Numbered from the stretch's first letter, positions 3,450 through 19,256 are shown. The stretch is DNA of 42,734 nt from an uncultured Meiothermus sp. (GCF_937863175.1 NZ_CALMCQ010000124.1:1-42734), one strand, 5' to 3'. The notes: generated by a model from the letters alone, not told the origin. Program-made: numbers and translations.

Positions 3450-3860
3450 ATGAACACCAGTGGACACTACTCTCTTATGGGTGAAGAGCCTCTTCTGGTT
3501 GGGCAGCGCTGCACGGGCTTCGTGCTCCAGCACTTCTACCAGGGCCAGCAGATCACGGATCAAGTCAATGTCGCCTACTTGCGCTTTGGCGAGCAGTGGT
3601 ATCGCTTGTACTTCGAATGCGCAACCATCTTTTGGCGCGCATCAGAGCCGCCGGAAGTAGCCGAAAACGCAGACCTCACCCATGGGCTACTGCTCAATGA
3701 TCTGTCTGGGATGGAGTCGGTGGTCGGCCAGACGGTTCAAGCAGTGGCTTACGAGGGATCCGAGTCCGGCGATGTTCGGGCCACCCTCACGTTTGCCAAT
3801 GGGAAGCGTCTCGAGTTTGAGCATAGCTGTGAGGCCGACTCCACCCGTCTAATCGGTTAG
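3450..3860 (+). CDS. Hypothetical cassette-borne protein
   Basis: I do not recognise this 136-aa protein. It has no signal peptide or membrane segment and reads as a beta-rich cytoplasmic domain with alternating aromatic and hydrophobic residues (VNVAYLRFGEQWYRLYFE). An acidic C-terminal half ends with the strand LTFANGKRLEFEH. The ATG follows the attC-like site by 4 nt and lacks a ribosome-binding site, as is frequent for integron cassette genes. Such cassette proteins often fall into small uncharacterised families, some of them toxin or immunity partners. No partner gene is apparent here. No convincing second attC is seen after the stop. Confidence 0.6.
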   Translation: MNTSGHYSLMGEEPLLVGQRCTGFVLQHFYQGQQITDQVNVAYLRFGEQWYRLYFECATIFWRASEPPEVAENADLTHGLLLNDLSGMESVVGQTVQAVAYEGSESGDVRATLTFANGKRLEFEHSCEADSTRLIG

Positions 3861-4480
3861 CCCCTCGGTCAAGGTGACGCCCTGCGTCGAACCCTGGGCT
3901 TCCCGTAGAGGGTGTGGAAGCGAACAGTCCGCTATACTATCAGGCCTTTCGCTTGAGCCAGGGGTCTGGCAACAAAGAAATCTGTATGCACTCAAGATTC
4001 CGAAACAAGCCTTCTCACAGCAAATTCCGTCATTCCTCAGGTCGAATCCGTGTCGAACACTACCGTCGTCCGAGCGCTGGATGACCTGGCCAAACCAGTC
4101 CACGGACTGGGGGCGTATATCCTGTCCGGGTTCATGGGGGAGCCCTTCAGGTGGTAAACCTGCCATCCGGCAAAGTGGGGGTCGGCGATTTTCCATGCAG
4201 TGCGTTGCTCGTCTGACGTGAGGACAAAGGCCCCTTTTCAGGTTCCAACCAGCAATCGAATGTTTCCCATAAATCTACCTTCTTGTACATCACGCTTAAG
4301 TTAAGCTTTACATCATTCGGGCAGTTTTCAACTTGATTGCATCTCTGGTTACTTTGAAAACCGCCTCTTTACTCCTATGGGTTCCCTAAGTGGGTGCATC
4401 TTCTACGCCAGCCGCCCTAAAATGACGCAGACCAAAGCTGGATTGCTTCGCATGCAGGGGTCGCTTGCAATACCAGAAGT
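3861..4480 (+). other. Gene-poor stretch after the cassette genes
   Basis: No credible gene is seen in these 620 bases. Both strands have open frames of about 115 codons at 3850-4220, but they show no recognisable motif and oppose each other. A short plus-strand frame at about 4115-4216 reads GVYPV then [13 protein letters not shown], faintly like a DUF4241-type protein, but it has no start or body. The segment 4250-4380 is AT-richer. The dispersed 12-mer CTGGATTGCTTC lies at 4438-4449. Confidence 0.5.
4438..4449 (+). repeat. Dispersed repeat 12-mer (copy 1)
   Basis: CTGGATTGCTTC occurs here and again at 19373-19384, both in intergenic DNA with TGACG nearby. It resembles the core of the REP-like elements with GAAGCAATCC cores found in many bacteria. 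Here it sits just past the 3' end of trmI. Confidence 0.4.
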
Positions 4481-5343: not shown

Positions 5344-5361
5344 ATCCCCCAAATGGGGGGT
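5344..5361 (+). promoter_or_regulatory. Shared pilin-upstream hairpin, copy 1
   Basis: CCCCC-AAAT-GGGGG with outer A-T and T-G pairs gives a possible 7-bp stem and an AAAT loop. Nearly the same element precedes pilin sets 2 and 3. It could be a DNA operator or an RNA structure in the leader. There is no T-tract after it, so it is not an ordinary terminator. Confidence 0.5.
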
Positions 5362-5628
5362 GAGTTTGTTAATTTCTCGAGGACACCCCTTCAAAAATGT
5401 CGAGCCTCCATTGCAATAACCGGCATTAATCTAAGCGTTACTCAGCGCTTCTTTTAAAGTGAATTATCAGGTCAGAGTTCACCAGAGACCTTCCGGACCC
5501 CTTCTAAGATGCACTCTGGGAGCAAGCGCTGGACGGTAGCAGGAAATCTTCCTGGGTTCACGCCGGTTTCTCCTCGAGCAGTACTCCGCAATTGTTTACA
5601 TCCACTGCGGCGATGTTGAGGGGGTCTT

Positions 5629-6135
5629 GTGAAACAAGCTAGTGGCCTGAGCGTGATTGAACTGATCGTGGTGACCACGATTCTGGGCATCCTGATTGCC
5701 CTGGGCGGAGGCTGGTTTAGCTCGGATCGCATGCGGGTCAACCAGGCGGCCCAGATCCTGAGCGCCGATGTGACCCGGGCCCGTCTTGAATCCTTGCGGC
5801 GCAATGTGCCGGTCGGGATTCGCTTTAGCTTTGCCAGCGGAACCAACCGCTACGAAATTGTGGCCGATACCGATCAGGATGGTCTCGATAACGAAGACCT
5901 GGTGATCAGCCGCACCCAGTTTGGGGCGGGGGAGTGGGGCCGGGTGCTGGGTGGCTTGCGGCAGTGCACGGCTGCCGATGCAGCTGCCTCTACCAGTGCC
6001 GAGGTGGTCTTCGACGCCCGGGGGGTCTATCAGCTCGCCACCAGCCGCAGCGTGCAGCTTTCCATTGGCTCTTATAGCCGCTTCATCAACATCAACCAAC
6101 AAGGTAGGGCGCAGATCAGGACGGCCTGTCCATAG
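5629..6135 (+). CDS. GspH/FimT-type minor prepilin (pilin set 1, PilA1-like)
   Basis: The product is 168 aa with a short leader ending in Gly6, then LSVIELIVVTTILGILIAL. This is a class III prepilin signal with Glu at +5 for cleavage and methylation by PilD and for assembly into a type IV pilus. Basic residues and a GspH-like beta domain follow. DTDQDG at residues 80-85 resembles a calcium-binding loop. The GTG start has GAGGGGG just before it. It opens a four-gene operon whose order matches the Thermus pilA1-pilA2-pilA3-comZ competence cluster, so a role in the tip of a DNA-uptake or adhesive pilus is likely. Confidence 0.82.
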   Translation: MKQASGLSVIELIVVTTILGILIALGGGWFSSDRMRVNQAAQILSADVTRARLESLRRNVPVGIRFSFASGTNRYEIVADTDQDGLDNEDLVISRTQFGAGEWGRVLGGLRQCTAADAAASTSAEVVFDARGVYQLATSRSVQLSIGSYSRFININQQGRAQIRTACP

Positions 6136-6143
6136 GAGCGTAT

Positions 6144-6590
6144 ATGCAGAATCGAGGAATCACGCTGGTCGAGTTGCTGATTGCCCTGGCGGTGATGGGA
6201 GTGGCCTTTGGGGTGCTGGTCTATGCCCAGGTTACCAACTACCAGGCTACCGCCAGGGCCGGGGTGGTCAGCCAGGTCAAAGATACGGCCACGCAAATTC
6301 TGGAGAACCAGGTGGGGGTGGTACTGGCGAACTTCACCCGCTATTACAACGGCTGCCCCAATGGCAACGAAAGCGGGAGTAATTTTGTTTGCTCGGGCAC
6401 CGGGTTCATCATCAATAGCGGCATCAATGAAGGACTGGAGGGAGAGGGGCAGGTTCTGATCCAGTCTTCGGCGGCCAGCCAGGGCATCAGCATCGCCCTG
6501 GCTACCCGGGTCTCGTGCTACGACAGTTTTGCTTCGCGTACTGCGGCCATCGGTTCAGGCAGCCTCGAGCCCTGCCCCCGGGTTAACTAG
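6144..6590 (+). CDS. Minor prepilin, PilV/GspI-like (pilin set 1, PilA2-like)
   Basis: The protein has 148 aa. The leader MQNRG is cut before ITLVELLIALAVMGVAFGV, which has the Glu5 of exported pilins. The remainder is a small extracellular domain with cysteines (GCPNGN, FVCSG, SCYDS) that may form disulfides. It begins 8 nt after the previous gene with a GGAG site and is followed by the next prepilin after 9 nt, so the genes form one operon. By analogy to the minor-pilin priming complex it would pair with the PilW- and PilX-type subunits at the pilus tip. Confidence 0.78.
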   Translation: MQNRGITLVELLIALAVMGVAFGVLVYAQVTNYQATARAGVVSQVKDTATQILENQVGVVLANFTRYYNGCPNGNESGSNFVCSGTGFIINSGINEGLEGEGQVLIQSSAASQGISIALATRVSCYDSFASRTAAIGSGSLEPCPRVN

Positions 6591-6599
6591 GAGCCTGCC

Positions 6600-7277
6600 A
6601 TGAGAACCAAAGGTTTAACGATCCTCGAGCTGATGGTGGCGCTGGCGATTTTTGGCATCGTGCTGGCCATCGCTACCCGTTTCTTTGCCAGCCAGTCGCA
6701 GGACACCCGCATCGTGCAGGAGCGTAACGAAGTACAGGATCGGGCGCGCCTGGTGTTGCAGATGGTCAGCCAGGACTTGATTCTGGCGGGCTCGAGCCGC
6801 TTCATCCGCAACAACGAAGTGCGTTTCGATGCCGCCAACTGGGTTTCCTGTGCGCCTGGAACCCCCTGCCTGACCGGTACCGACCACACCGATCACGATA
6901 CCTTCGTGACCCGCTACCACACCAGCCTCTACCCGAGCGGCCAGGAGTGCCGCTCCATTGGCTACCGCTTCAACGCCACCACCCTAATGCGGGCCGACGT
7001 ACCTTGCAGCCAGGCCCCTACCGGGGCTATCGCCGCTGGCAGCTACCTCGAGTTCGCCACCCAGATCACCCAGCTTAATATTCGCTATGTCTGCGGCGAC
7101 TCCGCTGCTACCGAAGTAGGGCTGCCCAGCGGTTGCATTGCCGTAGCCAACCCCACCGAACGCTTCGTGCGGGCTGCCCTGGTCACGGTCACGGCGGCCT
7201 CACCGCAGGGAGGCTACACCTACACCATCGCCCAGCGGGTGCCAATCCGCAACCTGAAAACCGACGAGGTGCTGTGA
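6600..7277 (+). CDS. PilW-like minor prepilin (pilin set 1, PilA3-like)
   Basis: The protein has 225 aa. The leader MRTKG is followed by LTILELMVALAIFGIVLAIA with Glu5. The next helix contains ERNEVQDRARLVLQMVSQDLILAGSS, the pattern of PilW/GspJ proteins, where a long helix leads to a beta-rich head. Cysteine pairs in the head may be disulfide-bonded. The TGA overlaps the following ATG (TGATG), so the large PilX/ComZ-like subunit is coupled to it. Confidence 0.78.
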   Translation: MRTKGLTILELMVALAIFGIVLAIATRFFASQSQDTRIVQERNEVQDRARLVLQMVSQDLILAGSSRFIRNNEVRFDAANWVSCAPGTPCLTGTDHTDHDTFVTRYHTSLYPSGQECRSIGYRFNATTLMRADVPCSQAPTGAIAAGSYLEFATQITQLNIRYVCGDSAATEVGLPSGCIAVANPTERFVRAALVTVTAASPQGGYTYTIAQRVPIRNLKTDEVL

Positions 7278-8950
7278 TGCGACAACCCCAGGGAATCGCG
7301 CTGGTCGTCACGCTGGCCATCCTGGTGGCGGTCGGGCTGCTGGCTTTTGCCTCCTCGATCACCACCCTGATCAGCCAGTGGAGTGCCCGCAACGAGCGCG
7401 GCGCGACCGAAGCCTACTATGTGGCCGAAACCGGCCTGCAGCAGTGGAAAACCCGCCTGTTCCAGTCCTATCGCTGGCAGCTCTACGAGACGGTGCGCAA
7501 CACCAGTGGCAGCCGTACCCCCACCCGCAGCGAGTGCGGCAACGTGCTGGCGGGCGGGGTGGACTGGAACCGCAATGGGCGCATTGACAGCGATGAAACC
7601 CTGCCCACCACCCGCACCGGGAGCGTACCGATGGGCCCCGGCACCGGCACCTACACCATCACGGTGGCCCAGGATCCCACCCGCCCCCGCTTCATGCTGG
7701 TGCGCTCGGTGGGCCGGTTCAATGGCTCCCAGGCCGTCGCTCAGGCTACCTTCGACCTCTCCAACACGGGTCCCTGGAACTATGCCATTTTTAGCGGACG
7801 CGGTGCGGCCAACCGCCACCTCAACGGTGGGGCCCTGATACGCGGGGGGCTCTATGTGCAGGGCCAGAGCAGCGACCCCGACCGGACTGTGATTGACTCC
7901 AACGGCAACTTCCGCATGGAAAACGAGTACAACTACAGCACCGACAGCGTACTGGCCAACCGCCTCAACAGCGATATGCGCAGCCTCTCCAACCTCTGTG
8001 CCACCCTGCGCGTCCAGTACGGGCGGGTGGAGGTGAGCGGAAGCTCGGAGTATGGCGACCCCAGCAACCCCCTGCTGGGCGCCTATGTGGGCGATGCTAC
8101 CAACGATATTTTTGGCAACACCTCCAGCGTTTGTACCGCCAACCGGGGGATCTGCACCGACGACCGGGGTGCTTTCGATCTGCCTCCTGCTCTGGCTCCC
8201 CGCTTCCCCGAGTTCAACACCACCCCCTGCGCCAGCGACCCCAGCCGCACCTGGGCCGCCTGTGTGCGCGACGAGGCCGCTGCCAGGGGCATCCGCATTA
8301 CCGGTAGCGGCATTCTCTTTCCGCCAGGAGCCCTGCCCACCAGTCCCCTATCGTGCGTCCTGGGCAACGTGCTCAGCGGAGGGGCACTGCGTTTTGGCAA
8401 CGCCAGCATGGACTGCCGCTATACCCTGGATGGCCGAACTGGCGGCTTCCGCTACACTGCGGGTAGTCCCGGCACCCTGGAAATCTACGGCACCCTCCAC
8501 ACCCATGGCATCAACGTCTTTTTTGACCATGCGGTCAACTACCGGGCCTTCGACTTCACCAACCCCACCACAGACCGCAATGCCTCGATCTTTGTCGAGG
8601 GGGGTAGCATCACCCTCAGCCGCGATCTGCTGCCCGATGCCAGCTCGGCCACCTTCCCCAGCCAGGTACTGGGTCTGCTGGCCCAGAACAACATCGAGCA
8701 ACTCACCAGCAATGCCATGGGCATCTTCTATGCCGGAAACCGCTTCCGCACCCAGCGTGACCAGCGCACCCTGGGCACCGTTGTGGCCAACGAATTCTGC
8801 ACCACCAGTGCGGGCGGTAGCCAGTGCAACGCCGGTCAACGGGCCGAGGTCACCTACATTCCGACCATGGGCAATATCCCGGTGGCCGCACAAATCCCCG
8901 AAGACACCATCATCGCCTCCTTCAAGATCATGTCCTATGAGCGGCGCTAA
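7277..8950 (+). CDS. Large PilX/ComZ-like minor pilin (pilin set 1)
   Basis: This 557-aa protein begins MRQPQG then IALVVTLAILVAVGLLAFASS, a prepilin-like helix without Glu5. GATEAYYVAETGLQQW after it is the PilX/GspK N-terminal pattern. Lack of Glu5 is a mark of tip subunits such as GspK. Size and gene order match Thermus ComZ, a large DNA-uptake protein of about 550 aa. Residues 96-107 (DWNRNGRIDSDE) fit an EF-hand calcium loop. The rest is repetitive and beta-rich, compatible with a beta-solenoid. The ATG at 7277 is preferred to upstream in-frame starts because it gives a proper leader and couples to the previous stop. The name ComZ is an inference from context. Confidence 0.78.
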   Translation: MRQPQGIALVVTLAILVAVGLLAFASSITTLISQWSARNERGATEAYYVAETGLQQWKTRLFQSYRWQLYETVRNTSGSRTPTRSECGNVLAGGVDWNRNGRIDSDETLPTTRTGSVPMGPGTGTYTITVAQDPTRPRFMLVRSVGRFNGSQAVAQATFDLSNTGPWNYAIFSGRGAANRHLNGGALIRGGLYVQGQSSDPDRTVIDSNGNFRMENEYNYSTDSVLANRLNSDMRSLSNLCATLRVQYGRVEVSGSSEYGDPSNPLLGAYVGDATNDIFGNTSSVCTANRGICTDDRGAFDLPPALAPRFPEFNTTPCASDPSRTWAACVRDEAAARGIRITGSGILFPPGALPTSPLSCVLGNVLSGGALRFGNASMDCRYTLDGRTGGFRYTAGSPGTLEIYGTLHTHGINVFFDHAVNYRAFDFTNPTTDRNASIFVEGGSITLSRDLLPDASSATFPSQVLGLLAQNNIEQLTSNAMGIFYAGNRFRTQRDQRTLGTVVANEFCTTSAGGSQCNAGQRAEVTYIPTMGNIPVAAQIPEDTIIASFKIMSYERR

Positions 8951-9048
8951 TCCGATGGTCTAACTCAACCCACGTCTGGAGTGTGGGGGTTGTGCTCGAG
9001 GCAGCCAGAACACCAGACCCCAGGCTGTGGGGATCGTAGACTGAAGCC

Positions 9049-10053
9049 ATGCCGCTCAAGCACCAACTGGCCTGGGTCATTGGCTTACTGGCCTTCATTC
9101 CCAACCTGGTTATTGTGGTGACCTTCTGGGTCTCGGCCCGTGGGCAGCCCCTGGAGACCTCGCTCTTCCTGCTGATCTGGGTGCTGGTACTGGCCCTGAT
9201 CGCAGCCTCGGTGGGCTATATCCTGGCCAACACCCTGCTGCGCCCGATGGACGAGCTGACCCGTGGCCTCTACTACCTCCGGGGAGCGGGCCGCACCCTG
9301 GCCGAACTATCGTTGCCCTCGCCCAAACAGCGCCCACCCGCCGAGATTGGACAACTGCGCGAGGGCTTTGAGGAAGTGCTGGATCATCTGCGCGACCTGC
9401 TGGAAGCCCGCGAAGCCACCTACGCCGCCCTGACCCACGATCTCAAAACCCCCCTGCTGGCCAGCTTGCGGGCGCTGGAATACCTGGAAGAGGCCGACAG
9501 GATAGGGCCGGAGAAGCGCAAAGAGATGCTACGCAACCTGCAGGAAGAATTGAACCGTAGCTATCTGCTGGTGGAGAATCTGCTTACCGCCAGCCGGCTG
9601 GAAGCCCAGCGCATCCAGCCGGAAAACCTTTATTTGCGTTCGCTACTGGAGGATTTCCGGCTTCGCTATGCACAACAAGCACAAAAGCGCGGCCTGCGCC
9701 TGGAGATTGAAGGGGCTGGGCAGGCCAGGGCCGAACGGCTGCTCCTGGAGCGGGCTGCGGCCAACCTGACCGAGAACGCTCTGCGCCACGCCCGAAGCCG
9801 GGTGGTGTTACGGGCCGGAGATGGCTGGCTCGAGGTGGAGGACGATGGGCCGGGGTTGCCGGATAGCCTGGAAACTCTTTCCCAGCCTTTCCGCAGCCAG
9901 CGCCTGCGGGGGGTGCGGGCCGGAAGCGCAGGGTTAGGACTCTATGTGGCCCGACGGGTGGCCGAGGTGCATGGGGGACGGCTGGAAAATCTGCCCTCTG
10001 TATCCCAGAGTACCCGGCTCAGAATTAGACTCCAGCCGGTGGCCTCACCGTAG
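9049..10053 (+). CDS. Membrane sensor histidine kinase (HisKA type)
   Basis: The 334-aa protein has two N-terminal membrane helices (about 8-30 and 38-62) with almost no periplasmic loop, then a HAMP-like linker. The H-box ALTHDLKTPL has phospho-acceptor H130. The catalytic domain shows the N-box NLTENALRHA (N243), G1 DDGPGLPD and G2 GSAGLGLYVARR. With so little outside the membrane it probably senses a membrane or pilus signal. A TAGACT -10 box lies 6 nt before the ATG (9037-9042), giving a leaderless-type start. No response regulator adjoins it; the nearest is at 14665, after pilin set 2. Its placement between pilin operons suggests it regulates them. Confidence 0.88.
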   Translation: MPLKHQLAWVIGLLAFIPNLVIVVTFWVSARGQPLETSLFLLIWVLVLALIAASVGYILANTLLRPMDELTRGLYYLRGAGRTLAELSLPSPKQRPPAEIGQLREGFEEVLDHLRDLLEAREATYAALTHDLKTPLLASLRALEYLEEADRIGPEKRKEMLRNLQEELNRSYLLVENLLTASRLEAQRIQPENLYLRSLLEDFRLRYAQQAQKRGLRLEIEGAGQARAERLLLERAAANLTENALRHARSRVVLRAGDGWLEVEDDGPGLPDSLETLSQPFRSQRLRGVRAGSAGLGLYVARRVAEVHGGRLENLPSVSQSTRLRIRLQPVASP

Positions 10054-10130
10054 TTTGTGACATTTGAACAGCTTGACCCGTTCCTGCTCTATCCTCAAGC
10101 TTATTCGTTGAGAACGTAGATCGGTCTAGG

Positions 10131-10159
10131 TTGACGGTGGTTGGCCGGATGATTAATGA
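10131..10159 (+). promoter_or_regulatory. Predicted promoter of pilin set 2
   Basis: TTGACG (10131-10136) and TAATGA (10154-10159) are 17 bp apart, close to the sigma-A consensus. Transcription would start near 10166, so the shared hairpin at 10181-10194 would lie in the 5' leader, about 15-30 nt from the start site. Confidence 0.5.
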
Positions 10160-10178
10160 GCAATTAACGTAACACCCG

Positions 10179-10196
10179 AACCCCCAACCGGGGGTC
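10179..10196 (+). promoter_or_regulatory. Shared pilin-upstream hairpin, copy 2
   Basis: CCCCC-AACC-GGGGG with an outer A-T pair. The loop differs from copies 1 and 3 while the stem is kept. Its centre is about 69 nt before the ATG of the first pilin gene, the same distance as in pilin set 3. Confidence 0.55.
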
Positions 10197-10255
10197 TTTG
10201 ATTTGATCGAAAACCCCTACCTTAGGAACTAAGGAAGCGGGGAGCGTCCCTAAAC

Positions 10256-10741
10256 ATGGCCAAAAAACTGCCAAGAACCTGGTCGCCTGGTGGCTTTACC
10301 CTGATTGAAGGAATCGTGGTGACGGCCATCATGGCCATTATATTTTCGGTTGCCCTGATGGGCTTTCGAGGCTTTTCCAACCCCCTCGAGAACCAGTACT
10401 CCGAACTGATCTCGCTTATACGCCTCGCGCGCATCAAGGCGATGCAGAACACCGCCGCGTATCGTCTTAGCGCAGACGCGGGCGTGGTGAGGGTCGAGTT
10501 TGCTCCCAACTGCACATCCCCCACCTGGAGTAGCGACCCCAGTATTGGACGAGACCTTGGTGGTGGGACTCGAGGTTTTCGTCTCAGTGACGGGGTCAGT
10601 ATGACCCCAGCAAGCTGGATCCTCTGCTTTACCAGCCGGGGCAGCCTGGGGTCTCCCAGCAACCTGACTCTAAACCTGAGCCGCAGTGGTAATACCCGCA
10701 GTATGCAGGTTCATTTGGGTGGAGGTGTGGCTAGACAATGA
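10256..10741 (+). CDS. GspH/FimT-type minor prepilin (pilin set 2)
   Basis: The product has 161 aa. The 13-residue leader MAKKLPRTWSPGG is cut before FTLIEGIVVTAIMAIIFSV, with Glu5 present. The helix continues into RLARIKAMQNTAAYRLS, as in FimT/GspH proteins, followed by a small beta domain. It opens the second minor-pilin operon behind a sigma-A-like promoter and the shared hairpin. The last codons overlap the next gene by 4 nt. Confidence 0.8.
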   Translation: MAKKLPRTWSPGGFTLIEGIVVTAIMAIIFSVALMGFRGFSNPLENQYSELISLIRLARIKAMQNTAAYRLSADAGVVRVEFAPNCTSPTWSSDPSIGRDLGGGTRGFRLSDGVSMTPASWILCFTSRGSLGSPSNLTLNLSRSGNTRSMQVHLGGGVARQ

Positions 10742-11121
10742 GAAACGGCTTTTCTTTGATCGAGGCGCTGGTTGCGCTGGCCATTCTGGGCATCCTGCTG
10801 GCCTTCGTTATTCCCAGTTTTGCTGGGTTTCTCCAGTCCAATTCCAACAACGAAATTCGCAATCAGGCCATAGTGGTCGCCCAACAGCAGATGGACTTTT
10901 GGAGACAGCAAGCGAAAGGCGTAACCGGCTCTACCCTGCCCACCTCGGGTAACTCTGGGACCCAGTCCATTGCGCAGGGGGGTCGCACTTTCAACGTAAC
11001 CACCCGGTTCTGTCCCGACCCGGCCCAGTGCTCGAGCGATAAACGCCAGTTCAGGGTAGAGGTGCGCATGGGAACCCGGCTGGTTTATAGCCTGGAGGCG
11101 GTCTATGTCATTTTCAACTAG
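10738..11121 (+). CDS. PilV-like minor prepilin (pilin set 2)
   Basis: This 127-aa protein has a four-residue leader MRNG and then FSLIEALVALAILGILLAF with Glu5. A helix with NQAIVVAQQQMDFWRQQ follows, typical of PilV/GspI. The head is small and contains a CPDPAQC pair likely to be disulfide-bonded. The ATGA overlap with the previous stop and the 17-nt overlap with the next gene show tight coupling. Confidence 0.78.
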   Translation: MRNGFSLIEALVALAILGILLAFVIPSFAGFLQSNSNNEIRNQAIVVAQQQMDFWRQQAKGVTGSTLPTSGNSGTQSIAQGGRTFNVTTRFCPDPAQCSSDKRQFRVEVRMGTRLVYSLEAVYVIFN

Positions 11122-12040
11122 CTCTTTCCAGACTGGCGGGCCAGATACCTTCCGGCCAGACTCCAGGAGGCCAAGACGTCAACCAACCCGAACGGCTGGC
11201 CTTACCCTGATCGAACTGCTGGTTGCTTCGGCGGTATCCATCTTGATACTGGCCTTGCTGGTACCCATTGTGATGGGAAGTCGCCGCCTGTTTACCCTGG
11301 ATCAGGCCCGAACCGGGGTGAACCAGGAACTCCAAACCGTGGCCTCGATCATCGGTGACGACCTGCGCCAGGCGGGTCAGGGGCTGCTGTACGCGGGCGC
11401 CGGCTACAACTCCAGCCCCAGACCGATCATAGTGACCTCGGGAACCGGGGGCGATACCCTCGAGGTCTGGACTGCCCGCAACAACGCCCCCACCCCCATC
11501 GGGGTTTGCGGTACCGTCACCTCCACCCAGATTCCGGTCTCCAGTTCGTCCAGCGGTTGCGCCCAGGGCGATGCCAACAGCAACAACATTCCCGACGCCG
11601 CAGAACCTTTCGAGAACTTCCGCGTTGCACAGGGGGGAATTGTAGAGGTCTATCTTTACAATCCCGCCACCCGCACGGGCAAACTGGTAAACCTCACAGG
11701 ACGTACTGGGACGGCTGCCAACTTCAACTTTACCTATACCGGGCCCGCCGGGGGCACCTATGGCCAGGGCTCGAGTCTGATCATCCTCAACCGGCGCCGT
11801 TACTCGGTTATGGATGGACAACTCCTGATCTCCGAGAACGGAGGTGCAAATCGGGTGGTGATGGTCGGAATTACCCAGTTCCGAGCGGAACCGCTCACCA
11901 CTACCGGAGGTGCCTGGACTCCCAGCATGCAGCTCTCGACCTTTAGTCAGGTTCGCCTGACCATCACCGCCCGGGATCCCCAGGGTCTGACCCGCACCCA
12001 GACCAACACCTTCTTCCCAAGAAACTTCCTCTCGCAGTAG
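11105..12040 (+). CDS. PilW-like minor prepilin with long leader (pilin set 2)
   Basis: The product has 311 aa. After an unusually long basic leader of about 32 residues comes LTLIELLVASAVSILILALL with Glu5. The long helix continues with GVNQELQTVASIIGDDLRQAG, the PilW/GspJ pattern. DANSNNIPDAAE at residues 156-167 matches a calcium-binding EF-hand-type loop. The ATG at 11105 overlaps the previous gene by 17 nt. No ATG or GTG nearer to the cleavage site exists in frame, so either the long leader is real or a rare start is used. An AGGAGG lies inside this leader (about 11166). Confidence 0.77.
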   Translation: MSFSTSSFQTGGPDTFRPDSRRPRRQPTRTAGLTLIELLVASAVSILILALLVPIVMGSRRLFTLDQARTGVNQELQTVASIIGDDLRQAGQGLLYAGAGYNSSPRPIIVTSGTGGDTLEVWTARNNAPTPIGVCGTVTSTQIPVSSSSSGCAQGDANSNNIPDAAEPFENFRVAQGGIVEVYLYNPATRTGKLVNLTGRTGTAANFNFTYTGPAGGTYGQGSSLIILNRRRYSVMDGQLLISENGGANRVVMVGITQFRAEPLTTTGGAWTPSMQLSTFSQVRLTITARDPQGLTRTQTNTFFPRNFLSQ

Positions 12041-12050
12041 GAGGACACCT

Positions 12051-14174
12051 GTGAAAATGTCTAATCGAGGCTTCGCCTTTTTGTCGGTGGTACTGATGAT
12101 GGCGGTACTGGCATCACTGCTTACCGCCTACTTTACCCTCAGCATTCTGGACACCAGCAACTCGGCTGCCGTTGCCTCGCGCACCCAGGGCTTCTTTGCG
12201 GCCGAGACCGGCCTGAACCTGCGGGCTGGCGCAGTAAAGGATCAGTTTGCCCATCATATGCGGCCTACCGGTACAGCCCCCGCAACCTCCAATGCCTGCA
12301 CTCCCGGCAACCTCGGCAGCGGCGACTTCGCCTGTCAGACCACCACCGTCCAGGGTAAGCAGGTCGTGACCTATATGCGCGAGCTGACCACCAATCTGGC
12401 TACCGGAGACACCGTCCACATTCCTCCAGGCGAGCCCTATCAGGGGCTTTGGGCCAACCAGTACCGCTACGATGTGTTTGCCCGTTCCTTAACCCGCCAG
12501 GGGCAGCCCGAAGCCATTGTGCGGATGACCTTCCGCCAGCGTATGATTCCCCTCTTCCAGTTTGGGGTCTTCTATGAAGGCGACCTCGAGTTCGACCGCA
12601 CCGCTACCATGAGCATGGCCGGGCCCATCCACTCCAACTCCAACATCTTTCTGGATGCGGGCGGGAGTTCCAGCCTAACCATCAGCGACAACGTGACCTC
12701 GGTTCGAGACCTGTACCGTGGGGGAAAGAGCAATGTGGGCTGCGGCGGCACCGTGAGCGTTATTGGTACGACCATTGATTGTGATACCGGAACCCGGCGA
12801 ATCCTGGGTGCAACCGAGATCGCGGGCTGGAACGGACGGGTGCAGAACAACATGAACCGCCTGGAAATTCCCGCTCCAGCAGCGTTCGATCCCGGCGGGC
12901 TGTACTGGCAAAGGGCCGAGCTCAGGGTGGTGCTCAACCTCAACGTAACCCCCCCCCGGGTTGAGGCCCGCAATCTGGATGGTACGGTTCATGCAGCGCT
13001 GACCTCGGCACTTTCCGCAGGCACCGCTTTCGACCCCAATTCAGGGGGGGGAAGCCGGGCAGTGGACTTTTCTGCATCCTTTTACAACAACCGCGAACTC
13101 ACCACCCGGCCTACGCTGGGTCCCATCCAGATGCTGGAAGTGAACATGGGACAGTTGCTGCAAGCCCTGCAGAGCAGCGGCCTGGTCAACCTGGCCGACA
13201 CCACCGACAACGGCCTGGTCTTTTACTTTGGCGTAGAAGGGCCGAACAGCAACGCCCTTAATAATTACGGGGTGCGCATCCGCAACGGGGCCGACCTTAC
13301 CGCCGCCAACGCGCAGATCCGGGGTCTGACCGTAGTCACCAACCAGGCTTTATACCTACAGGGCCACTATAACAGTGATACCTCGACCGGGACCGGCTCG
13401 CGCTGGCGTCCGGCGGCCCTGCTGAGCGACTCGCTCAACATCCTTTCGAGCGACTGGTTTCAAAACCACCCCAACCCCTACATCAGCGGGCATTATGGGC
13501 CTGCATTTACCAACCCGGGTGGCCTGACCAACAACCTCCCCAATTCCTGCGGCACCCTCAGCCTGACCGGCATGGTTACCAACGCGACCGCCCCCCAGAT
13601 TGCCGGCGATGCCAAAAGCAACCCCCGGTGCCGCAACCGCTGGATGAGCCTTCCATCGGGCGAGGACAGCGCCAACGCCCGCAACCGCTGGATCCCTCCG
13701 GCAGCCGACACGAGGGTGCAGGCCGCCGTGTTGACCGGCTCCACCATCACCCCCAGCATCGGCGGCCAGAGCGCAGGGGGCGTGCACAACATCATGCGCT
13801 TCCACGAACAGTGGACCAACCAGTGGCCGGAGGTTCTGATCGCACCCTCGAGCGAGTCCCTGTGGACCGCCAGTAAAGGTTCCCGAATTGGAACCGTGAC
13901 CATGACCATCAACGGCACGAGTCTGAGCATGAGGCGGTTTAACAACCTGACCTCGAGTCGTACTTACAGCTACCTTGGCTCGATTGTGAGCCTGACCACC
14001 AATGGTCCCCGGTTTGTCAATGGGCAGTTTTTCCTGGGCCAGCCCTGGTACCACCCGCCCGTGCGAAACTGGGGCTTCGACACTCGCTTTCGTAACTTCA
14101 CCCTGCTGCCCCCGCTCTCGCCCATGGCCTCGTACATGAGCCAGGAGCTTTTCCACCGGGATTTCAACCAGTAA
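12051..14174 (+). CDS. Large PilX-like minor pilin (pilin set 2)
   Basis: The 707-aa protein starts MKMSNRG then FAFLSVVLMMAVLASLLTAYF, a pilin-like helix with no Glu5. SRTQGFFAAETGLNLRAG follows, as in PilX/GspK. The long remainder is beta-rich, with segments such as MAGPIHSNSNIFLDAGGSS that recall polymer-like surface domains. It is likely the tip subunit for pilin set 2. The GTG at 12051 follows an AGGAGG site; an ATG two codons later is an alternative. It shares length and plan, but little sequence, with the large subunits of sets 1 and 3. No CxxCH motif is present. Confidence 0.75.
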   Translation: MKMSNRGFAFLSVVLMMAVLASLLTAYFTLSILDTSNSAAVASRTQGFFAAETGLNLRAGAVKDQFAHHMRPTGTAPATSNACTPGNLGSGDFACQTTTVQGKQVVTYMRELTTNLATGDTVHIPPGEPYQGLWANQYRYDVFARSLTRQGQPEAIVRMTFRQRMIPLFQFGVFYEGDLEFDRTATMSMAGPIHSNSNIFLDAGGSSSLTISDNVTSVRDLYRGGKSNVGCGGTVSVIGTTIDCDTGTRRILGATEIAGWNGRVQNNMNRLEIPAPAAFDPGGLYWQRAELRVVLNLNVTPPRVEARNLDGTVHAALTSALSAGTAFDPNSGGGSRAVDFSASFYNNRELTTRPTLGPIQMLEVNMGQLLQALQSSGLVNLADTTDNGLVFYFGVEGPNSNALNNYGVRIRNGADLTAANAQIRGLTVVTNQALYLQGHYNSDTSTGTGSRWRPAALLSDSLNILSSDWFQNHPNPYISGHYGPAFTNPGGLTNNLPNSCGTLSLTGMVTNATAPQIAGDAKSNPRCRNRWMSLPSGEDSANARNRWIPPAADTRVQAAVLTGSTITPSIGGQSAGGVHNIMRFHEQWTNQWPEVLIAPSSESLWTASKGSRIGTVTMTINGTSLSMRRFNNLTSSRTYSYLGSIVSLTTNGPRFVNGQFFLGQPWYHPPVRNWGFDTRFRNFTLLPPLSPMASYMSQELFHRDFNQ

Positions 14175-14664
14175 ACCGGCTGCACAAACCGGCCTGGCCG
14201 GAGCAAGGTACGCCTTCAAACCCCAGACCAACCGGAAGGCCAGGCTTAAATCGCAGTCGGCTTCTGCCGGGCTTCGCGGTCACCCTGACCCTCGATAACC
14301 CTGCGACTAGGCTCAGGGCAAGACTCAGGGCAACGCTGAAGGATCCGATACCCGACTCGGTCTAACCCGACCGAAGGGAGGCGCTTTTTTCGCCGACCGT
14401 CCGGGAGGGGTGTGCTCCAGGCTTCAAAAAAATAGCCTCGGGGTCTCCGGGTTGGAGGATGGTCTTTTTGAGTCCGGTATGATGCGCTGCACTGCCCGGA
14501 ATTCGATTGACCTGGGAGTATCCGATTCTTCGGCCCAACGGCCTTAGAGTGGCCTTGCGGCAGTGTGGTAAGCGCTCCGGAGACCAGTCCTGCTTTTGTG
14601 ATAAGAGTCTGGCTCCGCGCTGGTTTCGGTGTAAAGGGCGGAAGATGTGCTATTTTGAGCCGAG
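14175..14664 (+). other. 490-bp intergenic region after pilin set 2
   Basis: No gene is seen. GCCTGGCC (14192-14199) and GGCCAGGC (14238-14245) form a perfect inverted repeat. TCGGTC/GACCGA (14357-14374) forms a short hairpin followed by TTTTTT at 14385-14390, a possible weak terminator. CAGGGCAA occurs twice near 14320. A TATTTT box at 14651-14656 lies 8 nt before the regulator gene. Confidence 0.4.
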
Positions 14665-15249
14665 ATGCGCCTGCTGATCGCCGACGACCACCCCCTGTTT
14701 CGCGTGGGTCTGCGGGCAGCCCTCGAGCGGGAGGGCTTCGAGGTGGTGGGTGAGGCCAGCAACGGCCAGGAAGCCCTCGAGAAAGCCCTCGAGCTGATGC
14801 CGGATGGCGTGGTGTTGGATGTGCGAATGCCCCAGCTGGATGGAATTGCTACAGCCCGCATGTTGCGCGAACGCCGCTTTCGCGGCCTGATCACCCTTTT
14901 GACAACCTTCGCCGAACCTGTTCTCGTTCAGCAAGCCGCCTTTGCGGGGGCCGACGCCTACTGGTTAAAGGAACTTCCTCCCGAGGCGCTGGCCGAGCGG
15001 CTACGCCGCCTGGATCAGGGTCTGGAGCCTCGATTAAGGGCTCCAGAACTTCCCAAACTGACCTCCCGCGAGCAAGAAGTGTTGCAGTGGATGGCCCAGG
15101 GGCTCTCTACCAAAGAGATTGCCCGCAATTTGCACATTTCGCCCGAAACCGTCAAAGACCACCTGGTGCGGCTCTACGAAAAACTCGAGGCCCGCAACCG
15201 TGTCGAGGCCCTCGAGCGGGCCCGCAGCCTGGGGCTGCTGAGCCACTGA
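14665..15249 (+). CDS. NarL/FixJ-family response regulator
   Basis: The product has 194 aa. The receiver domain shows ADDHP near residue 6, the phospho-acceptor D52 in LDVRMP, and K96 in WLKELP. The C-terminal LuxR-type helix-turn-helix is LTSREQEVLQWMAQGLSTKEIA, then ISPETVKDHL. It would bind DNA after phosphorylation. It lies between pilin sets 2 and 3, so the pilin operons with their shared palindrome are obvious candidate targets. The kinase at 9049 has a HisKA domain, while NarL regulators usually pair with HisKA_3 kinases, so the pairing is uncertain. Confidence 0.9.
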   Translation: MRLLIADDHPLFRVGLRAALEREGFEVVGEASNGQEALEKALELMPDGVVLDVRMPQLDGIATARMLRERRFRGLITLLTTFAEPVLVQQAAFAGADAYWLKELPPEALAERLRRLDQGLEPRLRAPELPKLTSREQEVLQWMAQGLSTKEIARNLHISPETVKDHLVRLYEKLEARNRVEALERARSLGLLSH

Positions 15250-15392
15250 AAGGACCATTTCTGCTGCTCTCATATTTCGGTAGACTTCCTGCAGGAGTCG
15301 TGAATAGAACCTAGCGAGTCGTTATCTCGGGTACGGCAAACCCTATAGCGTACGGGTCTTGTGCCAGGGGCCTGCTCCCTCGTCCTACCGCA

Positions 15393-15410
15393 CACCCCCA
15401 AATGGGGGTG
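15393..15410 (+). promoter_or_regulatory. Shared pilin-upstream hairpin, copy 3
   Basis: CACCCCC-AAAT-GGGGGTG gives a perfect 7-bp stem with the same AAAT loop as copy 1. The centre lies about 69 nt before the ATG at 15470. TACAAT follows immediately (15412-15417) and might act as a -10 box. Confidence 0.55.
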
Positions 15411-15469
15411 TTACAATTCAAGGCAATTGCAAACCATTAAGTTACGGTTGTAAGGTTTGGAGGCGTTCC

Positions 15470-17593
15470 ATGCCAAATACAAAGGGAATTACGCTGGTTT
15501 CAACACTGGTCTTCATGTTCATCGTTATTATTCTGGTAAGCGTCTCTACGCTTACCTCCCTCAACAACCGCCGCAATGCCCAGGATGCCCTGCGTACCTC
15601 GCAGGCTCAGTTTGCCGCCGAGGCTGGCCTCGAGCGGGCCGTGGGCCGGTTGTGGCATCAAATTCTGGCCAGTGCCGCTTCTTCTAGCGTAAGTGCCTAT
15701 GCGGTCGAGTTGAACCGTTTCGGCCTGACCAACGGCACCAGCATTGCCAGCCTGTTTGGCGACCCACAAAACCTGGGGGATGGCTCGAGTTTTGTGGTGC
15801 GGGTCTCACGCCAGGACGATACCAGCACCGACCCCGATGCCATCGTGCTGACCCTTACCTCTACCGGCACCCTGGCCGACGGAACCACCAGGCGCTTGCG
15901 CCAGGTTTTTCGGGTAGACCGGGCCTTCTTTCCCTTCGATTTTGCGCTCCTGACCAACAACGCCGAGTGCATTTTCTGCCATCTGGACGTGAAAAGCCTG
16001 GATGCCCTGCGGGGCAACCCCAATCCCGCCGACCCCAGCACCTGGTGGCGGCGGGCCAGGGTGGGGGTGCTGGAAAGCCTGATTATGCGCGACGATGAAG
16101 AGGCCGGGGTGGTTCATGGCTCGCTGCTGGCCCGGGGTACGGTGAGCCAGCAGTACAGCGGCAACATCGGGCCTTCCAACCGCTACCGTACCACCATGAA
16201 CCCCGGCGACACCCGAATTCGCTCGACCACCTTAGTCAGCCCCACGCCTGCCAACTGTTCGACCCCCAGCAACTGCCTGAGCCCACAGAACCTCTACTAC
16301 AACTATCCGGATGGCAGCAATTTGGCGGCCTTTGGCAACCGCTTCCCGGATGGCGAGCTGCCGGATCGTTTTCCCCTGCCCATCGCTGACACCAACAACA
16401 ACCGCCTGATTGACGATGTCGAGTGGAATGCCGAGGTGAGCTCGAGCCTGACTGGCACCAACGAAAGCTACAGCGCCGGCACCATCACGGCCTCCATGAC
16501 CATCAACCCTGGCGGCAGCATGGCCTGGCCGGGAGGAGGTTCGATCCAGACCCTAACCTCTGCCAGTCTGGGTCAGCGCCGCAGCAATGTGATTCTGGAT
16601 GGCTCGGTCACCCCCATTGCCCTGAACGGTACGGTTTTTATTGACGGGGATGTGGTGATTCGGGGGCGGGTTCGCGGCAACGGCACCCTCCTGGCCCGTG
16701 GCAACGTCTACGTGATGGGCGACCTGACCTACGACTGTGGCACCGGAAGCAGCCTGGCCGCCTGCGACTACAGCACCCCCAGCCGCCTGCCCCAGCTCAA
16801 CTTAATCGCCGGTGGGAATGCGGTGGTGGGCGATTATATGACCATTGATACCTTTAACAACGATGCAAGCCGGGACCGCATCAATATGCTGAGTACGGAG
16901 CGCAACCAGCAGACCATGTCCTTCTGCCAAACCAACCCCTCCCATCGGGCTTGCTCACAGCTCACCTCCACTGGCCGAAGCAGCCGTCCCAATCTCGCCC
17001 TCACCGAGATTGCCAACTTCAACCGCCGGGAGCTACAACGCTGGCTGCGAAACAACAGCTACCGCCCCCGCTTCTATACCTTTGGGGAGGACCGGATTTT
17101 CTTTAGTGGACGCTGCTACCACGACCCACAGGGGTACGGGGGCTACAGCACCATCCGTAGCGGGGCCCAGGTCTCGTTCTGCCGGGGAGATAGCGTACTG
17201 AGCACGGTCACCCTAACCGCGGATCAGGCCGAACAAATCCAGCGAAATTCCGCTCGTTTTGAGACCACCTCGAGCACCTTCGACAACGCCACCCTCAAAA
17301 ACCTCTGGGCCGACTCGATGAACGCTCGAGGTACCGGCCCCCTGCGCACCGATGGTCTGCTCTACTCCGCCAATGCCATTTTTGGTCTTTCCCAGCGCAG
17401 GTACCCCAAACTGAATGGGCGCTGGGATCTGCGGGGCGGGCTGGTCGCTGCCGACACTGGCATCTTTGTGCCCGGCCCCGGAGACGGCACCTCGGGCCTG
17501 ACCATCTACCACGACAACCGCTTGCGACCGCGCATTGCAACCGGCCAGCAGGCCCAGCTCAACCGTGGCATCTGGGAAGTGGTGGGGCAGTGA
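15470..17593 (+). CDS. Large PilX-like minor pilin with a CxxCH motif (pilin set 3)
   Basis: This 707-aa protein starts MPNTKG then ITLVSTLVFMFIVIILVSV, a pilin helix without Glu5. SQAQFAAEAGLERAVGRLW follows, as in PilX/GspK. Residues 167-171 read CIFCH, a canonical c-type heme attachment motif, inside FALLTNNAE-CIFCH-LDVKSL. Residues 307-318 (DTNNNRLIDDVE) fit a calcium loop. The rest is long and beta-rich with several Cys pairs. The ATG at 15470 has GGAGG just before it and gives a proper short leader; an upstream in-frame ATG at 15359 would add 37 unlikely residues. In this set the large subunit comes first, whereas it comes last in sets 1 and 2. Confidence 0.76.
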   Translation: MPNTKGITLVSTLVFMFIVIILVSVSTLTSLNNRRNAQDALRTSQAQFAAEAGLERAVGRLWHQILASAASSSVSAYAVELNRFGLTNGTSIASLFGDPQNLGDGSSFVVRVSRQDDTSTDPDAIVLTLTSTGTLADGTTRRLRQVFRVDRAFFPFDFALLTNNAECIFCHLDVKSLDALRGNPNPADPSTWWRRARVGVLESLIMRDDEEAGVVHGSLLARGTVSQQYSGNIGPSNRYRTTMNPGDTRIRSTTLVSPTPANCSTPSNCLSPQNLYYNYPDGSNLAAFGNRFPDGELPDRFPLPIADTNNNRLIDDVEWNAEVSSSLTGTNESYSAGTITASMTINPGGSMAWPGGGSIQTLTSASLGQRRSNVILDGSVTPIALNGTVFIDGDVVIRGRVRGNGTLLARGNVYVMGDLTYDCGTGSSLAACDYSTPSRLPQLNLIAGGNAVVGDYMTIDTFNNDASRDRINMLSTERNQQTMSFCQTNPSHRACSQLTSTGRSSRPNLALTEIANFNRRELQRWLRNNSYRPRFYTFGEDRIFFSGRCYHDPQGYGGYSTIRSGAQVSFCRGDSVLSTVTLTADQAEQIQRNSARFETTSSTFDNATLKNLWADSMNARGTGPLRTDGLLYSANAIFGLSQRRYPKLNGRWDLRGGLVAADTGIFVPGPGDGTSGLTIYHDNRLRPRIATGQQAQLNRGIWEVVGQ

Positions 17594-18048
17594 GAAGGCT
17601 CTCCAAACAGGGCGTGAGCCTGGTGGAGTTTTTGATCGCGCTGGCGGTGCTGGGTATTCTGCTGGGAGCAGGCTTTGTTTCGCTGCGCTCCTACCAGCAG
17701 AGCCTGATCATCCGTGAGGCGGCCACCCAGGTTGCCACCGAGCTCCAGGGCATTCGCCAGCAGGCCCGTCGGCAGTCGGTAAACTTTACGTTCCAGGCTA
17801 GCGCAAATGGCAATACTTACAGAGCAGGCCGCAGCAGCAACCTAGCTTCTCTCCCCAGCAAATCGCTGCCCTCTGGCGTGGTCTTTCAAAGCGTGCCTTC
17901 TGGTGGGGGGATAGTCAGGTTTGATGCCCCGTACGGCATTGTGAGCAGTGGAGCCAATGGCAGTTATGTCTTGCGAGGGCCTGGTAACCGAGTGCTCAAC
18001 ATCAACGTTGTTGGGAGAACTGGAAAGGTGGTGGTTCGTGCACCGTAG
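17590..18048 (+). CDS. GspH/FimT-type minor prepilin (pilin set 3)
   Basis: The product has 152 aa. Its leader MRRLSKQG precedes VSLVEFLIALAVLGILLGAG with Glu5. The helix runs on as IREAATQVATELQGIRQQARRQSV, the FimT/GspH pattern, followed by a small beta domain. The start is GTG overlapping the previous stop (GTGA), so it is coupled to the large subunit. The gene overlaps the next by 11 nt. Confidence 0.78.
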   Translation: MRRLSKQGVSLVEFLIALAVLGILLGAGFVSLRSYQQSLIIREAATQVATELQGIRQQARRQSVNFTFQASANGNTYRAGRSSNLASLPSKSLPSGVVFQSVPSGGGIVRFDAPYGIVSSGANGSYVLRGPGNRVLNINVVGRTGKVVVRAP

Positions 18049-18412
18049 CGGTTTCTCTTTTATCGAAGTGATGGTGGCACTGGCAATCCTGTCTCTTACC
18101 ATCGTTATTTTGAGCTACTTCGGCTCGAGCTTCACCCTCACCCGCAACGCCCAGATAGACACCCAGGCCCAGGCCTTTGCCCGCAGCTACTTCGACAATG
18201 TGCGGGCCAGTTGGACTACCCGCGCAGCCTACAACGCCGCTGTAGCGCCCTCTGTCACCCCTCCAAGCGGTTTCAGTAATCCCACCCCTACCCTCACTAC
18301 AGTCCAGACCGTGGGCACCCAGGTGGTGGTGCGCCGGATTACCATCCAGTTCACCGGGCCACAAAACCGCACCTACCGCTTTGCCACCGAGGTAGTGTTG
18401 CCCCCCCAGTAG
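18038..18412 (+). CDS. PilV-like minor prepilin (pilin set 3)
   Basis: The 124-aa product begins at a GTG (MHRSG) and continues FSFIEVMVALAILSLTIVILS with Glu5. IDTQAQAFARSYFDNVRASW and a short beta head follow. The open frame extends 30 codons upstream inside the previous gene, but only the GTG at 18038 gives a normal short prepilin leader. AAAGGTGG lies before it. The spacing to the next gene is 7 nt. Confidence 0.75.
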   Translation: MHRSGFSFIEVMVALAILSLTIVILSYFGSSFTLTRNAQIDTQAQAFARSYFDNVRASWTTRAAYNAAVAPSVTPPSGFSNPTPTLTTVQTVGTQVVVRRITIQFTGPQNRTYRFATEVVLPPQ

Positions 18413-18419
18413 AGGTTTT

Positions 18420-19256
18420 ATGCGTAAACAAGGCATTACCCTCATTGAATTATTGATAGCCGCCGTTATTGGGGTGGCGATTCTGACCCTAATTGCCACC
18501 AGCCTTCGAGGCAGTACCGACAGCATACGCTTTGTACAAAATTCACAGATGCTTACCGAAGATATCCGCACCGCTGGTAACCTCATTAGTGATTACCTGT
18601 CCACAGCAAGCTTTGTCTATCCACCTGGAACAGTGATTACCTTGAATACCCTCAGTAGCTATACTGTACGAAATCCTATAACCAACACCAACGTTTGGAC
18701 TATTGGTACGCATCCAGCGGTAGCCATGCTGCAACCCATCAACCCCGGCAGTGGTGAGTTCAGATTTGTGATGATTTATGCTATGAATCGTGGCTGGGTT
18801 ACTAATCGCACCCCCTCCTCTGAAATCCCGGAGCGTAGTGTGCCCAATGACAACAAGTGGGTGCTTTACATATATGAAGTGTTGGTAAATGTAGATGTGG
18901 CAAATCGCTTGCCCAATGGTCTGCCGTTAACGATTCCTACTCGCTTTCCAATTGTTTCTACTCCTGGGGGTAATAGCGGGAAATTGTTAGCTGACTATGT
19001 AGCGCCAAATAGGTTTACCGTTAGCTATCCTGACTGCTTGGGATTTGACGAAGCAGGTATTGCCACTCTGGTTTCCTGCCCTACTGCTCCACCAACTCCC
19101 CTCCAAGCAGCCCATAGTTCTGCACGAATTGCTTTTTCGTTGCAAGGCGAAATCCATCAAGGCGGGCGTGACACCCGTGTACCTTCCAATCCACTAAGTT
19201 TTCAAGCTGCACCACGCAATCTTGCCAAACGGTTATCTGATATTACCCGTAACTAG
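18420..19256 (+). CDS. PilW-like minor prepilin (pilin set 3)
   Basis: This 278-aa protein has the leader MRKQG and then ITLIELLIAAVIGVAILTLIA with Glu5. FVQNSQMLTEDIRTAGNLISDYL follows, a PilW/GspJ-type helix. AGAGGTTTT precedes the ATG. From about 18600 on, the gene is clearly AT-richer and uses more A/T-ending codons than the rest of the cluster. It also contains no CTCGAG. The head domain may therefore have been exchanged by recombination while the assembly helix was kept. Confidence 0.78.
   Translation: MRKQGITLIELLIAAVIGVAILTLIATSLRGSTDSIRFVQNSQMLTEDIRTAGNLISDYLSTASFVYPPGTVITLNTLSSYTVRNPITNTNVWTIGTHPAVAMLQPINPGSGEFRFVMIYAMNRGWVTNRTPSSEIPERSVPNDNKWVLYIYEVLVNVDVANRLPNGLPLTIPTRFPIVSTPGGNSGKLLADYVAPNRFTVSYPDCLGFDEAGIATLVSCPTAPPTPLQAAHSSARIAFSLQGEIHQGGRDTRVPSNPLSFQAAPRNLAKRLSDITRN

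Follow-up and report, generated by a model that had tools for sequence, protein, structure and literature searches.

Type IV pilin genes are known to be controlled by two-component systems: PilS-PilR controls pilA in Pseudomonas and Geobacter, and AlgZR controls the minor pilins of Pseudomonas. Thermus serves as a model in work on type IV pili and on natural transformation, and the gene for its major pilin, pilA4, is temperature-regulated. Operators of the NarL family take several forms; those of NarL and NarP are 7-2-7 inverted repeats (TACYYMT-N2-AKRRGTA), ComA recognises TTGCGG-N4-CCGCAA and DosR/DevR recognises GGGAC-N4-GTCCC. The pilA4 promoter region is active in T. thermophilus, with predicted −35 and −10 elements placed there (PMC10507856), and a search of the text of that paper found an inverted repeat or hairpin nowhere mentioned. 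In the literature searched, with subscription papers outside its scope, we found no described regulator or operator of Thermus or Meiothermus pilin genes.

The palindrome described here, found ahead of minor-pilin operons in a Meiothermus, resembles the NarL/NarP operators in having two inverted heptamers 2 bp apart, the C-rich arm first and the G-rich arm second, and the candidate regulator, encoded at 14665, belongs to the same domain family (GerE helix-turn-helix). It is unlike them in its heptamer (ACCCCCA, not TACYYMT) and in its association with pilin genes instead of nitrate respiration. With the operators of ComA and DosR/DevR, which are bound by dimers of NarL-type response regulators, it shares G+C-rich arms and a 4-bp spacer, but the half-site sequence and the regulon are different; DevR itself is a moderate sequence relative of the 14665 regulator (65 bits). 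Like PilS-PilR and AlgZR, the kinase and regulator considered here form a candidate two-component system for type IV pilin genes. However, PilR is a sigma-54 enhancer-binding protein that acts from far upstream and AlgR is of the LytTR type, whereas the present candidate is of the LuxR type and would act at −42.5 of sigma-70-type promoters.

The window, by which we mean the whole stretch of 42 734 nucleotides analysed, from an uncultured Meiothermus sp., contains three exact matches to CCCCCNNNNGGGGG (table 1), against a mean of 0.31 in shuffled sequences; one of 100 shuffles attains three. They lie where the sequence-only reading had placed them, each with a pilin operon downstream as it had claimed, and its distance of about 69 nt between palindrome centre and start codon in sets 2 and 3 is accurate (68.5 nt to the ATG in both). 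Site 1 is not equivalent to sites 2 and 3, because its 3′ end lies 269 nt ahead of the GTG start codon of set 1 and its flanking genes are divergent, with trmI on the minus strand. In set 2, the PilX-like protein of 707 aa (12051–14174) gives a sub-cut-off match (E = 4e-18) to the HpsA model of cyanobacteria, in the model's C-terminal part. A pilin-based search of viral contigs found nothing.

Table 1. Palindromes, promoter elements and genes of the window, with positions counted from its first nucleotide.
Feature	Position	Strand	Remark
Site 1, CCCCC-AAAT-GGGGG	5346–5359		trmI/pilin divergent intergenic region; lacks a −10 box at +23/24
Pilin set 1: GspH-type pilin, two more pilins, PilX_N-type protein	5629–8950	+	
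Sensor histidine kinase, HisKA + HATPase_c	9049–10053	+	predicted partner of the 14665 regulator
Flanking element TTAACGTAAC, 5′ of site 2	10164–10173	+	GTAAC core invariant and TTAACGTAAC form common in 14 aligned set 2 promoters
Site 2, CCCCC-AACC-GGGGG	10181–10194		proposed activator operator of set 2
Predicted −10 box TACCTT, set 2 promoter	10218–10223	+	23 nt past GGGGG
Pilin set 2: GspH-like pilin, two more pilins, 707-aa PilX-like protein	10256–14174	+	
NarL/LuxR-type response regulator, candidate activator	14665–15249	+	Response_reg + GerE
Site 3, (A)CCCCC-AAAT-GGGGG(T)	15395–15408		proposed activator operator of set 3
Conserved GTTACAAT, directly 3′ of site 3	15410–15417	+	includes −35-like TTACAA; set 3 alignment, 8 species
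Predicted −10 box AACCAT, set 3 promoter	15432–15437	+	23 nt past GGGGG
Pilin set 3: 707-aa PilX-like protein first, three pilins next	15470–19256	+	

The spacing between palindrome and promoter was examined in 34 sites picked only by palindrome and gene, never by their −10 sequence (15 from set 2, nine from set 3 and ten Thermus intercistronic pilin sites), by counting, for each offset from 5 to 40 after GGGGG, the hexamers whose second base is A and whose sixth is T. In all 34, and so in all three operon types, NANNNT begins 23 or 24 nt past GGGGG; the other offsets score between 0 and 8. Both hexamers of the window stand at +23 and 32 nt ahead of the start codon. If the hexamer is a −10 box, as predicted, the centre of the palindrome falls near −42.5, and each of the 34 sites would have the symmetric element near −41.5/−42.5 that characterizes a class II activator operator, which overlaps or abuts the −35. 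Activators that take the place of the −35 contact are typically centred there. By inspection, TTGACA is absent at sets 2 and 3 and at the Thermus pilin site, and present at pilA4. The fixed spacing supports a location of the palindrome near −42.5 of a putative −10 promoter.

A composite pattern, CCCCC-N4-GGGGG-W-N22/23-HANNNT, was then searched over 50 Thermaceae. It matches the window's own genome exactly twice, at sites 2 and 3 (control 0), and only five of 54 oriented plain sites from own-genome loci have NANNNT at +23/24, sites 2 and 3 included. Eighteen of 20 further composite loci that we opened stand directly 5′ of pilin operons, many of different sets, a proportion that is not an unbiased rate because the loci were picked partly for pilin-like spacers; the remaining two are non-pilin by eye (cytochrome c biogenesis and a DeoR-type regulator). 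No −10 hexamer at +23/24 was found at site 1 or at the Pil-Chp-like and amidase sites described below, and these palindromes may act from a distance or repress. Site 1 was also considered facing trmI and rejected by inspection, the minus strand having no −10 box at +23/24.

The sequence-only reading had proposed a genome scan for other pilus or competence genes with the motif. The plain 5-4-5 pattern occurs at 28 places in the genome (3.55 Mb, 488 contigs), against 11 for a reversed control; one Pil-Chp-like operon does carry the motif, and many of the 28 places lie in coding DNA. A refined search with ACCCCCAAWTGGGGGT, allowing up to two mismatches, yielded the three window sites, the Pil-Chp-like site, an amidase site and three others, of which the only one placed lies inside a gene. 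Behind its palindrome, the Pil-Chp-like operon encodes a receiver-domain protein, CheW, an MHYT-type protein and a methyl-accepting chemotaxis protein (the last two by eye). Repeated CGTAACG-type elements such as GTAACGCTTCGCGTAAC lie 5′ of this operon (L022, 3745–3870; G000 C285; relatives L228–L242) and are kept in most Meiothermus compared, even where the palindrome is missing; they are candidates for binding by a second regulator. Just 5′ of the start codon (L022, about 3800–3870) there is a conserved GCGGGCGG...CCGCCCGC stem, identified by eye, that is probably part of the operon's leader. The amidase-site palindrome lies between the amidase gene and the divergent gene for a 316-aa protein of no known family (L016, 4060–5010; no Pfam or NCBIfam match), and is conserved there in several Meiothermus.

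Across 57 sites, 27 of which were picked with the composite pattern (whose spacer is unconstrained), the operator can be refined to ACCCCCA-NN-TGGGGGT, a 7-2-7 inverted repeat, because the first spacer base is A in 53 sites and the last is T in 47. Between these edges lie two bases, mostly TT, that are not complementary, and GGGGG is followed by T or A. The mirror-image sequence that stands at a fixed distance ahead of the promoter box of minor-pilin operons in Meiothermus, Thermus and related families can be written CCCCC-ATTT-GGGGG. GTAAC, GTTAC or GTTAAT elements adjoining the sites are conserved, and a second factor may bind them; considered as a general motif, the flanking element is not enriched in the window, either as CGTAACGC or as CGTWACG.

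Among named loci, those nearest to the window come from Meiothermus hypogaeus and an uncultured Meiothermus, and the related genomes fetched have palindromes at pilin loci beside kinase and regulator genes. In 14 aligned set 2 promoters the ten arm positions (C5 and G5) and the upstream GTAAC core are invariant and nearly all else is variable, spacer and flanks included, in agreement with the earlier description of a kept stem with varying flanks and loop. The set 3 site, aligned in eight genomes, reads ACACCCCC-N4-GGGGGTGTTACAAT, with a 6-nt spacer in one, and site 1 is kept together with a downstream GTTAATTT at L191, L198 and L199 and in G010 and G020. Site 1 would be weak if judged in its own genome alone, but it is conserved in other Meiothermus. 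The sequence-only reading had staked its motif on conservation before orthologous pilin operons; the motif precedes these and non-orthologous pilin operons as well, so the observation of a shared motif was correct, and understated. In many Meiothermus (L192–L205), the interval between kinase and regulator genes (10053–14665 in the window) holds pilin genes whose similarity to the sets of the window is weak (28–32%) or absent, with the promoter kept. Pilin cassettes have apparently been exchanged behind a fixed promoter in this genus.

Beyond Meiothermus, the sole ACCCCCN4GGGGGT of one Calidithermus genome (G004) precedes a pilin operon, as do two of the three in another (G003); the genus names of genomes with G labels were deduced from gene content and named loci. 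Of ten Thermus comZ-type clusters, nine have CCCCC-[AG]TTT-GGGGG, or a sequence close to it, in the gap that separates the first pilin gene from the second; one base is changed in the tenth. In the Thermus comZ–pilA4 region, equivalent to the T. thermophilus promoter characterized previously (PMC10507856), a C-run/G-run palindrome, such as CCCCC-AAAA-GGGGG, directly abuts the TTGACA −35 in eight of nine promoters aligned. It is an exact 5-4-5 in five of them, and the spacer varies from 3 to 5 nt at pilA4. Most of these nine promoters (L321–L329) also have a nearly invariant 11-bp direct repeat, TTTCACACCCC-TTTCACACCCC, 5′ of the palindrome. A nearly invariant CATGGCCGCGCA...GCGCGG block lies 30–60 nt before pilA4, just ahead of the ribosome-binding site, and is possibly an RNA element of the leader.

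A stricter composite pattern was found in 51 of 111 genomes of the GTDB order to which Thermus, Meiothermus and Calidithermus belong, with up to nine composite matches per genome in family f4 versus 0–1 for the reversed control. When 20 loci from families f2, f4 and f5 were opened, most of those from f2 and f5 and about half of those from f4 preceded pilin operons. Elsewhere in f4 the element stands ahead of LemA-like genes, of a gene resembling DUF4388 and of an operon putatively for a secreted protein and a chaperone (by eye), and thus the f4 regulon would be wider than pilins. At two f4 loci (L452 and L459), operator and −10 box stand ahead of an operon with a LemA-like gene (by eye), which suggests a wider envelope regulon.

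The 14665 regulator matches PF00072 (residues 4–113) and PF00196 (residues 131–183) above cut-off, which places it in the NarL/FixJ family; it falls short of the NCBIfam NarL equivalog model for the nitrate regulator (132 bits against a cut-off of 250). Among solved structures, DesR, NarL and VraR come closest to it. The kinase encoded at 9049 carries a HAMP-like region; no sensor domain was recognised in it. Orthologues of the regulator were detected in all 50 Thermaceae searched, 48 of them intact, one a fragment and one frameshifted (G028, where the presence of the damaged gene makes a regulator-absence test uninformative); those from Thermus share 61–67% identity. Kinase and regulator genes are adjacent in G012, G006, L033, L034 and families f2–f5, as would be expected of cognate partners, and are neighbours in basal Meiothermus and Deinococci MAGs too, often behind lepA. 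They are an ancestral adjacent pair, and the pair in the window has therefore been split by pilin set 2. The order regulator–palindrome–pilins is seen in Meiothermus, G006 included, and with one mismatch in G073 of family f5 (CCCCC-ATCT-AGGGG behind the regulator, NANNNT at +23). Also in f5, G098 has CCCCC-ATGT-GGTGG-N23-TAGGCT ahead of a pilin set, and in G099 pilin operons flank the regulator, with two palindrome-bearing ones within 11 kb. Order-wide, the motif is present in 47 of 80 regulator-positive genomes versus four of 31 without a detected regulator, a comparison that ignores phylogeny and in which the negatives include incomplete genomes. Judged by its gene neighbourhood, its presence throughout the family and the layout of the operator, the 14665 regulator is the best candidate binder of the palindrome.

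We therefore favour, as the probable explanation of the whole, a double-stranded DNA operator for an activator at −42.5 of minor-pilin operons, the activator most likely being the 14665 regulator. A dimeric helix-turn-helix activator would bind the two symmetric half-sites, ACCCCCA and TGGGGGT, two base pairs apart, and contact RNA polymerase at promoters with a TANNNT-type −10 box and usually no good −35. Minor-pilin operons would be switched on together, and so would Thermus pilA4, whose TTGACA −35 is bordered by the palindrome. The NarL-type response regulator would most likely be phosphorylated by the 9049 kinase. Symmetry, conservation and fixed spacing to the −10 box are evident from the aligned sites, and the putative role as double-stranded operator is well supported. 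We infer that the −10 box is used and, from where the palindrome lies and because most sites have no −35, that the bound factor would activate and not repress. Several observations count against this explanation. The −10 box is missing from +23/24 at site 1 and at the Pil-Chp-like and amidase sites, and spacers of 3, 5 or 6 nt at pilA4 and some other sites are unusual for a rigid dimer site. G059 and G095 have pilin-type sites and no detected regulator, although in G028 a frameshift had concealed the gene, and many f5 genomes have the regulator without the exact motif. The GTAAC element also flanks several sites, and a second factor may matter.

As an alternative, the palindrome could be an activator (or repressor) operator at pilin promoters that is bound not by the 14665 regulator but by another conserved transcription factor of the order, which we consider unlikely. 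CCCCC-N4-GGGGG does not itself name its binding protein, and the main evidence against assigning it to the 14665 regulator comes from G059 (100% complete) and G095, which have pilin-type sites and no regulator match at E ≤ 1e-38; for G059, synteny with G060 was followed until the contig ended. Many f5 and several f3 genomes show the reverse, a regulator without the exact motif, and in T. thermophilus the CRP-family factor TTHB099 alters expression of some pilin-like genes (PMC7662524). Against this, the 14665 regulator stays beside pilin operons and palindromes in several families, and is present throughout the Thermaceae searched; linkage to the sites was observed for no other regulator gene. 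An operator of CsoR type (metal/sulfur repressor), suggested by the C/G tracts, was set aside as the targets are pilin operons.

The sequence-only reading had left open whether the hairpin was an operator or an RNA leader element; the operator half is supported, and the leader half is disfavoured because the palindrome would lie upstream of any transcript from the predicted −10 box, fixed as that box is at 23–24 nt downstream in 34 of 34 sites. A transcribed hairpin controlling stability, translation or attenuation is accordingly very unlikely, even if a 5-bp G-C stem is possible (8 bp at site 3), the loop differs in length at a few sites (3, 5 or 6 nt) and the start codon follows about 61 nt past sites 2 and 3. 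At pilA4 the palindrome stands upstream of TTGACA; across the aligned sites a C-G pair never gives way to another pair, and at the Thermus site L303 a pair is broken without compensation. The conserved A and T at the spacer edges cannot pair across a 2-nt loop, and Rfam gave no matches in the window. Intrinsic terminators of the upstream kinase and regulator genes would account for sites 2 and 3 lying about 128 and 146 nt behind those genes, and Calidithermus has a related CCCC...GGGG hairpin close behind the regulator, followed by TTGGTTTT. We regard this as extremely unlikely, as sites 2 and 3 have no T-run behind them, the neighbours of site 1 are divergent and the distance to the −10 box stays constant in operons whose upstream genes differ. 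Chance palindromes in a G+C-rich genome, to which the 28 plain matches, many of them coding, might point, deserve almost no credence given the strict conservation in orthologous intergenic DNA of the 14 aligned set 2 promoters, the fixed −10 spacing and the link to pilin operons seen in separate families. At sites 2 and 3 a chance origin is already refuted.

How pilin genes are switched on in Thermus is largely unknown (PMC10507856). Most likely a single pilus activator, not described before, lands on the palindrome, and it is probably the two-component regulator whose gene lies beside the site; the analysis yields a precise operator together with one named candidate regulator and its kinase. 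The promoter rule, operator followed after 23–24 nt by a −10 box, finds pilin operons from raw sequence. More broadly, a single two-component system, ancestrally arranged as kinase–regulator–[operator]–pilin operon, might be the common activator of the minor-pilin operons, which encode the type IV pilus tip, across several families of the order and of the main pilin of Thermus, with new pilin cassettes landing behind a pre-existing copy of the promoter; we see this proposal as evenly poised. The findings suggest unified control of the many parallel minor-pilin sets, and suggest how exchanged pilin cassettes may remain under control.
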